46,154 nucleotides of DNA from Candidatus Gugararchaeum adminiculabundum (GTDB lineage: Archaea > Micrarchaeota > Micrarchaeia > Burarchaeales > Gugararchaeaceae): NCBI GenBank assembly GCA_902384795.1, contig CABMDC010000002.1:1-46154 (forward strand), in the 5' to 3' direction. The translations under genes and the position numbers were made by a program. The notes below the pieces were generated by a model that was given only the letters and a program-made list of their open reading frames with translations, was not told where the DNA came from and did not search any database. Shown in pieces: positions 18,173 to 42,126 of this stretch. Position 1 is the first letter of the stretch. The number at the start of each line of letters is the position of its first letter.

Positions 18173-18244
18173 AGAACCGCCCCGATTTGGCTTGCGAGCC
18201 AAATGGGCACATTTTTGCCATCGGGCAAAAATCGTGTAGGTTCT
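18173..18244. repeat. Paired-palindrome element, copy 1, upstream of tRNA-Leu
   Basis: Two adjacent hairpins, ATTTGGCT-TGCG-AGCCAAAT at 18185-18204 and ATTTTTGCC-ATCG-GGCAAAAAT at 18211-18232, are joined by GGGCAC and enclosed by AGAACC (18173-18178) and GGTTCT (18239-18244). A second copy of the pair lies in reverse orientation at 41874-41919 with the same order, spacing and flanking CCCG. It ends 7 nt before the tRNA-Leu gene. No other copy was noticed in the window. Confidence 0.75.
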
Positions 18245-18251
18245 TGCCCCG

Positions 18252-18336
18252 GCAGGGGTTCCAGAGCTTGGTCAAATGGGCAGGGCTTAGAACCCTGTGG
18301 CTTAGGCCTCCGCAGGTTCAAATCCTGCCCCCTGCA
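18252..18336 (+). tRNA. tRNA-Leu (anticodon UAG)
   Basis: An 85-nt type II tRNA. The acceptor stem GCAGGGG at 18252-18258 pairs with CCCCTGC at 18329-18335, followed by discriminator A. The anticodon stem CAGGG/CCCTG holds the 7-nt loop CTTAGAA with anticodon TAG. A long variable arm and the T arm GCAGG-TTCAAAT-CCTGC follow. CCA is not encoded and there is no intron. No clear TATA box lies at the usual distance, because that space holds the palindromic element, so the tRNA may be processed from a longer precursor. Confidence 0.96.
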
Positions 18337-35863: not shown

Positions 35864-37345
35864 TCAAAGATATTTATATTCCCCGCCCTGGCCCGAATAA
35901 ACTTTTCCAGTTCCGGGCTCAAAGGAGACCAGGGCAAACTCCTGGCCATAGCGCTTTACATACGATTTTTCTTCCGTGTACAGCATCGGAACATAATTGT
36001 TCACATCTCTCCATCCGGCGGCGCTCATCTTGGTGCTTTTTCCTGCAAACTTTTCGTTCATCAGCTCTAGATTCGTTAGCCTGCCGCGCAGCGAAACGAT
36101 TTTTCCGCTTTTCATGTTCCCTACGGCTCTTTCCCCTCCGTTATAGCCCATGGCAGTTACGAAAAGTGAATACTCCTTGCAGTCGTCCGGCATCAGCGAG
36201 TAAACCTCATTCAGGATTTTGGTGAAATACCTGACCCCTCCCTGCAGGCTCTTTCTTATGTCCGTGCGCTCGTCAATGCCCCTGGGCAGATTCACTTTTA
36301 TCCCCATACCGTTGGCAGTGCCTGGCATGAGCTGCGAAACCCCGCGCGCGCCTGCCGGAGATCCGTTATTCGGGTCAAACTTGCTTTCCATGGAAAACAT
36401 GATGCGCATGAACCTGTAGGGATTCAGCAAAACCCTGCCTCCAGTCCTTGCTTCCAGGTCCTCGCATATCCTGGCTATGGACATCCCATAGCCGAAATCC
36501 TTGTTCACGAACTCGATTAGTGCAGATTCTATCCGCCCCACCTTGGCCATGCTTTCAGCAGTGGGGGTCGGAGGGTAGAGCTTTGGGTTGATTGCGGAAT
36601 AAAATTTGTACGCCTCGATCAAATATCCCTTGCTCAGCTCAGGCGGTTTCCCTACGAACGTCCATTTGGTGCGCGCGCTTTCAGCAGAAAATTCCTCATA
36701 CCCCCCAAAATTCCCGGTGTCCTTATCCAGCCGCGCAAATGCCGCGGGCGCGTACTTCTTGAAAAAGTCGTATTCTGAAATCTCTCCTTTTCCGCGCACA
36801 TAATAGACGGGTGTTTTCTCCTTCAGAAACTTAAGCGCCAGGACTTCCTGGCCGTCCGCAAGCTTCACTTTCATAATGGCATACTCGGTCTTGCTTGCGG
36901 CCAGCTCTGCCTTCTTGTCCAAAAACTTTTTCGTGTCATAGTCGATTTTGCTTATGGCTTCCTCGCTGAAAATTGATTTTTCCAGGGCATAGACCCGCTT
37001 GCCGGCAATCACTCCATAGCGCAGCTGGAATTCTTCCAGTGAGAATCTGTTCTGAGTTTCCACATCAAAAAAAATCGTTTGGTTGGAGCTGTCCACATAA
37101 GAGATGGCCACCCTATTCTGGGCGTTTTTCCCATCCACGCATCTCAGTTCCAATATGCGCGCATCATTTCCAATCTTTGAAAAACCATCAAGCGCGTTCT
37201 TGGCTTTTGACGCCAGGTCAAAGATGCGCATCAGTTCCTTGTCGGCAAGCGGCAGCCGGGTTCCGAAATCGCGCTGCGGCAATGCCGGAGCAAGCATAGC
37301 CAGGCCGCCTTCCACGGATTCAGGGTTCTTTTTCTTGTCCGCCAT
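35864..37345 (-). CDS. Protein with C-terminal lytic transglycosylase (SLT) domain
   Basis: A 493-aa protein. Residues 1 to about 290 are an unrecognised mixed region. Residues about 310-450 carry a lysozyme-like transglycosylase core: IMFSMESKFDPNNGSPAG holds the catalytic Glu in MESKF, then ARGVSQLMPGTANGMGI, GGVRYFTKILNEV and TAMGYNGGERAV. In bacteria this fold cleaves murein, which archaea do not make. No signal peptide is seen when the start is ATG 37345; that start has TTTTATTTT about 25 nt upstream and no ribosome site. A longer frame from 37384 would not give a convincing signal peptide either. The target is unknown. Confidence 0.85.
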   Translation of the reverse strand: MADKKKNPESVEGGLAMLAPALPQRDFGTRLPLADKELMRIFDLASKAKNALDGFSKIGNDARILELRCVDGKNAQNRVAISYVDSSNQTIFFDVETQNRFSLEEFQLRYGVIAGKRVYALEKSIFSEEAISKIDYDTKKFLDKKAELAASKTEYAIMKVKLADGQEVLALKFLKEKTPVYYVRGKGEISEYDFFKKYAPAAFARLDKDTGNFGGYEEFSAESARTKWTFVGKPPELSKGYLIEAYKFYSAINPKLYPPTPTAESMAKVGRIESALIEFVNKDFGYGMSIARICEDLEARTGGRVLLNPYRFMRIMFSMESKFDPNNGSPAGARGVSQLMPGTANGMGIKVNLPRGIDERTDIRKSLQGGVRYFTKILNEVYSLMPDDCKEYSLFVTAMGYNGGERAVGNMKSGKIVSLRGRLTNLELMNEKFAGKSTKMSAAGWRDVNNYVPMLYTEEKSYVKRYGQEFALVSFEPGTGKVYSGQGGEYKYL

Positions 37346-37490
37346 GGGGGCTATTTGGAAAAAGGAAAATAAAAGCGTATGCAAAGCCCTCTCTAATTTT
37401 GCAATAACTTTACTGCTTCCCGCTGGCCATGGTATAATTAGACTGCTCGGCTTCTTTAGCGATTATTCCTCCAGCCCCAGCCCTCAATCC

Positions 37491-40834: not shown

Positions 40835-41764
40835 TTACGTAGTCAGTTTCTTTTTTCCCTTATCCTCAAGTTTAATGTCCTTGGATTTGACATTCTGCTC
40901 AAACACCTTGTCCACTTGCAATGTGTCAACCTTGATTTCATCCTTTACTTTCTTGCCAAACAGCCTCTTCAGCTTGTTCCTTTCCTTGACTTTCACAATT
41001 AGCACGCCATCCTTGTCCCTTCCCGCAACATAGCCCAGCATCTGCGGGCTTTCGGGCTTGAGAGTGAATGCAATAAACGCTTTCCTTTCCGCGACCTGCT
41101 TCCAGTGTTCCTCCTCCCTTGCATTCATTTCCCTTACCGGCCTCATCTCCTCCTCATGCCTCTTTTCGGCCCATTCGATTCTTTTTGCCTCATTCTTCGC
41201 CCGCTGCTCGGCATTGGGATTCACATAGAGCTCGTCCGCCTTTTTCGCACCTTTCCGTATCTGCTCAGGGATATCGCTTTCCTTCAGGTACGCCTTTGCA
41301 TTGAACCCGGTTTTCAATGGCTTGTACAGCTGTGTGTCCCTTTCAGCCAGCGTCATGGTGAACATGTTGTCCGGCTTGCAGTACTCCTGGAGTTTTTCCT
41401 TGCTTACCCAGCCGGAATTCTCCCACTTGAACGGGTTTGTATGGGTGATTTTCACTGCAAGAAATTTCCCCGGCTCAGGTGATTTCGGCCCTGCCTGGAG
41501 CACAAGTATCACATCATCAACAGCGCTTGTTTTCTTGTCGCTTTTTCCCTCATAGTAATCCGTTTTCCCAAGGAGCAGAAGGGTTGGCGCATAACCCTTT
41601 TTGGTGAACTCATCGCGCAATTGCAGGTAAACGGCAAGCTCGGCAAGGGGCACCTGGTTCGGGCTCATGCTTTCAAAGGACCTGTCAAACTGGCCGAGAT
41701 ATTTTTTTAGCAGTTCATCCTTTTTCACCGGCAATTCTTCCTTTTTCCTTTTCGCAGCAGCCAT
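40835..41764 (-). CDS. Uncharacterised charged protein
   Basis: A 309-aa soluble protein, Lys/Glu-rich, of unrecognised family. An N-terminal basic stretch (AAAKRKKEELPVKKDEL) precedes a mixed alpha/beta part (about residues 40-180). A strongly charged helix (about 200-235, many Arg/Glu) resembles a coiled coil, and a C-terminal beta-rich segment (LGYVAGRDKDGVLIVKVKER) may be a small barrel. I chose ATG 41764 because GGTGA lies about 5 nt upstream; GTG 41773 is alternative. A TATA-like box near 41792-41802 serves it. It is convergent with TFB. Confidence 0.65.
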   Translation of the reverse strand: MAAAKRKKEELPVKKDELLKKYLGQFDRSFESMSPNQVPLAELAVYLQLRDEFTKKGYAPTLLLLGKTDYYEGKSDKKTSAVDDVILVLQAGPKSPEPGKFLAVKITHTNPFKWENSGWVSKEKLQEYCKPDNMFTMTLAERDTQLYKPLKTGFNAKAYLKESDIPEQIRKGAKKADELYVNPNAEQRAKNEAKRIEWAEKRHEEEMRPVREMNAREEEHWKQVAERKAFIAFTLKPESPQMLGYVAGRDKDGVLIVKVKERNKLKRLFGKKVKDEIKVDTLQVDKVFEQNVKSKDIKLEDKGKKKLTT

Positions 41765-41859
41765 GGGCGTCACCGCAGCTATTTGGTTTTCAGAATATTT
41801 AAACCAGCACCCTTTGCGATTCTACCGAAAACTTCGCTGGCAGCAGCGTTACCATTACG

Positions 41860-42052
41860 GGCGCTGCCGCGCGATTTGCCCTCGGGGGCAAATGCGCCCA
41901 TTTGGCTCGCGAGCCAAATCGGGCCGTCAACTGGGCTGCGCGCCGTGGTGCTTGCTGCTTCGCGGCATCAAGCAGTCCGCCTTCGAGGGCGGACCTGCAC
42001 GCTTCGGGGCGTGCAGCCACTCGTTGGCGGCGCAGCCCGACGCGGCAGCGCC
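41860..42052. repeat. 193-bp nested palindromic element, contains copy 2 of the paired palindrome
   Basis: A perfect 12-bp outer inverted repeat (GGCGCTGCCGCG 41860-41871, CGCGGCAGCGCC 42041-42052) encloses five hairpins: 41874-41893 (ATTTGCCC/GGGCAAAT), 41900-41919 (fully self-complementary 20-mer), CTGCTT/AAGCAG 41955-41975, TCCGCC/GGCGGA 41976-41993, and CTGCACGC/GCGTGCAG 41995-42016. The last three sit inside a second stem, GGGCTGCGC 41933-41941 with GCGCAGCCC 42030-42038. The first two hairpins are the reverse-oriented twin of 18185-18232. It fills most of the 369-bp gap between divergent genes, has no protein-like frame, and may be a structured RNA or a mobile palindrome. Confidence 0.75.
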
Positions 42053-42112
42053 AATGTTGGCGGCATTGCTGCCTTTGTCGTTTTTTGCGAGCGCTTCGTT
42101 TCTGACTCACAC

Positions 42113-42126
42113 TTATTAATTTTAAG
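42113..42126 (+). promoter_or_regulatory. TATA-like box of the KH protein gene
   Basis: TTATTAATTTTAAG is centred about 24-26 nt before ATG 42143, which has no Shine-Dalgarno. This supports that start over the much longer open frame that runs back through the palindromic element. Confidence 0.5.

Follow-up and report, generated by a model that had tools for sequence, protein, structure and literature searches.

A branched palindrome carrying a smaller twin hairpin in Candidatus Gugararchaeum adminiculabundum is probably a mobile DNA repeat invaded by another

Results

The window analyzed here is a 46,154-nt stretch of contig CABMDC010000002.1 from the Candidatus Gugararchaeum adminiculabundum assembly. 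Towards its right end a multi-branched palindromic element lies between a leftward gene for an unnamed protein and a rightward KH-domain gene, and a second, smaller hairpin pair lies beside a tRNA gene. At 35864-37384, on the minus strand, the window also holds an archaeal gene that encodes an SLT lytic transglycosylase domain of bacterial type (PF01464, E = 1.5e-12). Features of interest, with the evidence for each, are as follows.

18180-18238, minus strand: a further twin hairpin, enclosed by a stem and separated by 14 nt from tRNA-Leu (18252-18336) (covariance model R1, 59.1 bits; tRNA; enclosing helix score 9)
41794-41805, minus strand: TATA-like sequence, read from sequence, putatively of the leftward gene (312-aa protein with its ATG at 41764 and without a Pfam hit)
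41839-42073, unstranded: entire palindromic scaffold, GGCAGCAGCG ... GGCATTGCTGCC, with its limits taken from the fold (235 nt, -150.9 kcal/mol; related scaffolds at other places of the same genome)
41860-41871, unstranded: left arm of the 12-bp perfect inverted repeat (sequence and fold)
41869-41925, plus strand: twin-hairpin mobile unit within the scaffold, two inverted hairpins with one bulged base at each foot (R1, 59.8 bits, E = 7e-10 in its own genome; at this site, two other scaffold pairs differ in having a twin)
41933-41941, unstranded: left arm of the inner 9-bp stem (sequence and fold)
~41949-41974, unstranded: four-way junction hairpin 1 (fold)
~41975-41994, unstranded: four-way junction hairpin 2, GTCCGCC..GGCGGAC, common to L002, L004 and L009 (fold and copies)
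~41995-42016, unstranded: four-way junction hairpin 3 (fold)
42030-42038, unstranded: right arm of the inner 9-bp stem (sequence and fold)
42041-42052, unstranded: right arm of the 12-bp perfect inverted repeat (sequence and fold)
42113-42126, plus strand: TATA-like sequence, read from sequence, putatively of the rightward KH-domain gene (ATG 42143; Pfam hits KH_1, KRR1 and PNO1)

An earlier note, made from the sequence letters, had described a structure at 41860-42052 in which 12-bp perfect terminal inverted repeats form an outer stem around two hairpins and an inner 9-bp stem, which itself encloses three hairpins. All of these parts were found in sequence and fold. The limits were drawn too tightly, with paired layers running further, to ~41839 and ~42073, and the outer flanks out to ~41815 resemble the ends of other scaffold copies. 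Its remark that nothing resembles a coding frame holds in that the KH-domain gene most likely starts at its downstream ATG, but frames are mechanically open here, including a 304-aa ORF from the TTG at 41783. Measured against shuffled sequence, as that note had proposed, the 193-base structure is far more stable on both strands. The minimum free energy (MFE) of the plus strand is -128.2 kcal/mol (mean of 200 shuffles -97.1, sd 4.7; z -6.6) and that of the minus strand -126.1 kcal/mol (z -7.3), and none of the 200 shuffles on either strand matched this stability. The structure is real and far from chance. When 434 kb of the same genome were scanned for folding (10,853 windows of 160 nt, from C12, the window contig and most of C4), 11 merged places lay beyond -4 robust SD once GC was corrected for, and the region is one of them. 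Two parts make up the feature, a multi-branched scaffold and, carried on it, a twin hairpin of ~57 nt (41869-41925).

Using the 193-base structure as query, a BLAST-type DNA search of the genome returned 11 matches at nine distinct places, and other scaffold queries brought the count to at least 11 places (the window, L002, L004, L005, L007, L008, L009, L133, L137, L138 and L139). Scaffolds are built from ~11-bp stems separated by 5-nt bulges, followed by a four-way junction with three hairpins whose sequences vary from copy to copy. Eight of the 11 lie between divergent genes, compared with 77 of 367 neighboring gene pairs (P ~3e-4; ~0.016 with weighting by spacer length), with gene orientations taken from a simple ORF caller and partly by eye.

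Two scaffold pairs display sites with and without a twin. The scaffold at C4:113.4k has none, and its counterpart at C4:62.3k, with 142/157 identity outside the twin, carries one between GCGCTGC and CGCC. Likewise, C12:184k is without a twin and C12:211k has one at the same site as the C4 pair (144/174 identity). The twins at C4:62.3k and C12:211k are almost identical, though the closest relative of each scaffold is twin-less, which could reflect either two separate entries or the exchange of modules between copies. Hairpin sequences are also swapped between the otherwise near-identical scaffolds C12:184k and C12:211k. The twin of the window element likewise follows GCGCTGC; alignment with C12:184k is poor (114/140 over scattered pieces), and the position of the twin rests on this shared flank.

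Twins measure 54–60 nt and consist of two inverted hairpins with GC clamps, of the form [GCGC G ATTT..AAAT GCGC][CCC ATTT..AAAT C GGG], with one bulged base at the foot of each hairpin. Our covariance model R1, built from five sequences, gave 30 matches in the G. adminiculabundum genome at E ≤ 0.1, merging to 15 loci. At E ≤ 0.01 it matched 13 of 60 related genomes, this one included, the others being 8 out of 15 further genomes from the same order and 4 out of 44 from elsewhere in the class. A phylum-wide draw yielded matches in 7 of 97 genomes at E ≤ 0.001, again including this one, and whole families with many genomes gave no R1 match. The exact twin pattern occurred in five stretches among named genomes, from two Micrarchaeota assemblies and one record labelled Diapherotrites, and a search of viral contigs with one strict pattern returned no match. 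Among 72 unique twins having both hairpins we counted 41 and 40 different arm sequences, with arms near-perfect, although pairing quality is partly selected for because all copies after the first came from a structure-model search.

Reading 82 twin copies with their flanks placed them in spacers, in or beside tRNA genes, in the loops of other hairpins and, in one relative, within protein genes. Of the 15 loci in the G. adminiculabundum genome, two lie inside introns of tRNA genes and another four no more than 50 nt from such a gene. Five of the nine twin loci in the 434-kb sample lie inside a tRNA gene or at most 50 nt away, a zone that makes up ~8% of non-coding space (rough P 4e-4). A test for enclosing stems was positive but modest, with a helix score of at least 6 in 15 of 81 twin copies, related copies included, compared with a mean of 3.6 and a maximum of 14 under permutation. 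Insertion of a twin into the hairpin loop of another twin is displayed by L092 of the relative G001, for which L090 represents the single form (86/96 identity). By eye, nested twins of the same kind are seen at L097 and L100 of G001, a twin within a twin at L044 of the G. adminiculabundum genome, and, at its L051, a CCTTTTCTTT..AAAGAAAAGG hairpin whose loop holds a twin; program alignment of L051 with L037 is poor (43/54), and the loop insertion rests on this reading.

Several further arrangements were seen around twins. Three tRNA genes apparently have T-loop introns that hold twins, as read by eye (L067 in G013, ~1412-1600; L071 in G008; L121 in G010). The CCTTTTCTTT..AAAGAAAAGG hairpin is a third repeated module, adjoined by GGCTGGTCGAAnCC in several copies, that accompanies twins in tRNA introns and flanks; its sites in the G. 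adminiculabundum genome are C12:192.5k, C4:71.9k, C20:25.5k, C5:11.4k and C6:1.8k. Twins at L086, L088, L093, L105 and L106 (G001 and G006) sit in a conserved frame, gggggaatcaggagg ... cctgaaactgaagggggg, that is common to two genera, possibly forms a bulge-helix-bulge and may be intron-derived. A twin-adjoining flank, GTAAAAACCT / AGGTTTTTACC, recurs in G004 (L064, L076, L111 and L112), where it may be part of a longer element, and a similar stretch occurs in G039, of another family (L066). Very long-intron ARAGORN calls that placed L032 in a tRNA-Cys and L070 and L096 in tRNA genes were rejected as spurious.

Translation through the copies revealed at least two twins in frame inside conserved proteins of G005, a PRPP synthetase and a GNAT protein, with both families confirmed by Pfam. 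The PRPP synthetase reads LPG-GPLSADGKGPLSRIGEKEGV-KDAEV across the twin, and exactly 54 nt are absent at this site in G010, of the same genus (282/366 nt identity outside). The segment is missing from all 11 aligned homologues covering the site, a count that leaves out two loci short of the site and one too distant. The GNAT gene reads LES-GPLSASGGKGPLSAKQKVG-GAKLGR, and the same 54 nt are absent in G010 (324/429 identity) and G008 (299/426). Both inserts are multiples of three and contain no stops, as translated insertion requires. The simplest reading is that they would have entered after the two same-genus species split; since more distant homologues also do without the segment, G010 is unlikely to have lost it. 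The positions that took up twins probably lie on the protein surface. At both sites a possible target repeat of up to 3 bp (GGC) is indistinguishable from the terminal clamp.

In L060 (C12:251k of the G. adminiculabundum genome) and L069 (G022), twins lie in frame in an N-terminal stretch just before what we take to be a class III (pilin-like) signal motif. L060 has a weak, sub-threshold Pfam match to DUF1616 only, and is a possible in-frame coding twin of this genome, in a pilin-like signal region.

Three protein families were considered as candidate movers, and none tracks the presence of twins across genomes. The Y1 transposase (PF01797) is present in 2 of the 13 genomes with twins, some of which are incomplete, and in 13 of the 47 without. 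The G. adminiculabundum genome and G005 have one Y1 protein each, and no match at E ≤ 0.001 was found in G001, G004, G006 or G010, all of which have many twins and one of which, G004, is listed as 100% complete. Across 20 genomes, the TnpB-type zinc ribbon (PF07282) occurs in 7 of 13 twin-positive and 6 of 7 twin-negative genomes, and LAGLIDADG_3 (PF14528) in 9 of 13 and 7 of 7, respectively.

Discussion

We consider the window feature to be very probably a non-autonomous mobile palindromic DNA repeat that was invaded by a second, smaller mobile palindrome. Twins are dispersed, are nested, are tolerated in frame, and have near-perfect Watson-Crick complementarity without strand preference. The earlier note had offered a non-autonomous mobile element as one of two readings and suggested a search for copies and for occupied and empty sites. 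That reading gains from the dispersed copies, the sites with and without the insert, both in one genome and between two same-genus species, and the insertions into other hairpins. The note's further suggestion of a MITE-like origin fares less evenly: the 12-bp terminal repeats with their outer paired layers and the absence of coding capacity agree with it, but there is no clear target duplication and no parent transposon was found.

To judge by their distribution, twins have spread within a single group of Micrarchaeota-type archaea. A twin would land wherever it is tolerated, in spacers, in tRNA introns and flanks, in the loops of other hairpins, and at positions in protein genes where 54 nt keep the frame. 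Movement would presumably take place in trans, with the twin as folded DNA (hairpin or cruciform) acted on by some enzyme. Recombination between copies probably adds to the swapping of hairpins, and would not explain the new insertions in protein genes. Tentatively, twins could represent a new class of mobile DNA of DPANN archaea, moving in single-stranded, folded form and preferring hairpin loops, which would give rise to branched, self-nested palindromes; the enzyme of such a class might then belong outside the Y1, TnpB-type and LAGLIDADG_3 families.

An alternative to transposition is that recombination or gene conversion among existing hairpins is the main route by which modules spread, with fold-back (quasi-palindrome) repair keeping the arms perfect. 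We regard this as unlikely, although several observations are compatible with it: the hairpin swaps between C12:184k and C12:211k, arms that stay near-perfect despite the diversity of their sequences, and candidate movers that do not track twins. The identical twins in two scaffolds with twin-less nearest relatives could also arise by recombination between copies. However, the exact 54-nt gains in protein genes, at positions where relatives have no hairpin, need new DNA at a new place.

REP and REPIN elements consist of a pair of inverted, bulged hairpins, and the twin, with its two inverted hairpins and single bulges, recalls this anatomy. Mobilization by a REP-associated Y1 (RAYT-type) transposase would also fit the single Y1 protein in each of the G. 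adminiculabundum and G005 genomes. This reading is improbable, however, given that most twin-bearing genomes, including the twin-rich G001, G004, G006 and G010, are without a Y1 match, that twins lie within genes and tRNA introns, and that 8 of 11 scaffolds lie between divergent genes.

The earlier note's other branch, a structured RNA, non-coding or cis-regulatory, that is expressed from the spacer of the divergent genes, appears very improbable, even with a fold that is highly stable on both strands and related hairpins inside transcribed tRNA introns. In an RNA kept by selection one would expect wobble pairs on that RNA's own strand. In 77 unique twins, G-U pairs make up 18 of 1672 (1.1%) on the motif strand and 27 of 1686 (1.6%) on the other, compared with 12.7% in shuffled sequence; in 11 scaffolds they make up 26 of 766 (3.4%) and 25 of 766 (3.3%) on the two strands, compared with 11.4%. 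This scarcity, equal on both strands, makes a DNA element more likely than an RNA. Each flank of the element has a TATA-like sequence, and the start codons follow ~17–36 nt further out; neither divergent transcript should therefore include the element. A search of Rfam matched no family for the structure: the whole window gave only tRNA at gathering thresholds, locus L001 had no match at E ≤ 1, and nine loci at E ≤ 1 gave only a tRNA and a sub-threshold 18-nt piece of tmRNA.

Position points the same way. The KH gene is present in all 11 relatives examined, and the 260–300 nt upstream of it hold no comparable multi-branched element in any of them, with start codons resolved in all but G001 and G013. 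MFEs of the 300 nt upstream range from -58.8 to -128.7 kcal/mol in the relatives, the most stable being GC-rich, compared with -148.2 here. The structure is therefore not a conserved cis element of the KH gene. Most likely, the element at this locus is a passenger in untranscribed spacer upstream of both promoters and not a regulatory RNA. Finally, it is hardly credible that the protein-gene twins are bulge-helix-bulge introns spliced from mRNA and the element a mobile archaeal intron: twins are frequent in tRNA introns and a bulge-helix-bulge-like arrangement (CAGG/CCUG, 3-nt bulges) was seen by eye in G001 and G006 flanks, but the two coding insertions have no enclosing helix (helix scores 2.5 and 3) and keep the reading frame free of stops.

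The best-known examples of selfish palindromes inserted in frame in genes come from Rickettsia. The Rickettsia palindromic elements (RPEs) are described as short palindromic repeats of ~150 bp with a conserved peptide, dispersed through the genome and found in frame in many unrelated metabolic genes (PMC10969869). The twin is also a dispersed palindrome, with 15 loci in one genome, and in G005 lies in frame in conserved protein genes whose orthologues do without it. It differs from RPEs in its length of 54–60 nt, its two hairpins, its archaeal setting, its nesting in hairpin loops and its clustering at tRNA genes. The best reading, by analogy, is that the twin would work as RPEs do, the likeness being proposed for the mode of working.

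MITEs, as described for Sulfolobus, Halobacterium and other archaea, are small, non-autonomous, multicopy elements with terminal inverted repeats (PMC10969869). The window element resembles them in its terminal repeats, small size, copy number and want of coding capacity, and differs in its internal multi-hairpin branching as well as in the target duplication and parent transposon discussed above. Repetitive hairpin-forming elements also invade spacers in the mitochondria of scattered sponge lineages (PMC2800124). Twins are likewise hairpin-forming invaders of spacers, but the sponge elements belong to organelle genomes, and in-frame coding insertion and self-nesting do not figure in the part of that account consulted here (PMC2800124). 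Our searches of the open-access literature brought up no paper describing elements of this kind from Micrarchaeota or DPANN.

The twins appear to give the Rickettsia palindromes an archaeal counterpart, one that occurs in Micrarchaeota-type archaea with small genomes, nests in hairpin loops and prefers tRNA genes. They would offer an independent case of how tiny genomes acquire new peptide segments and branched palindromes, and they pose a testable question: what moves them where the usual transposases are missing.
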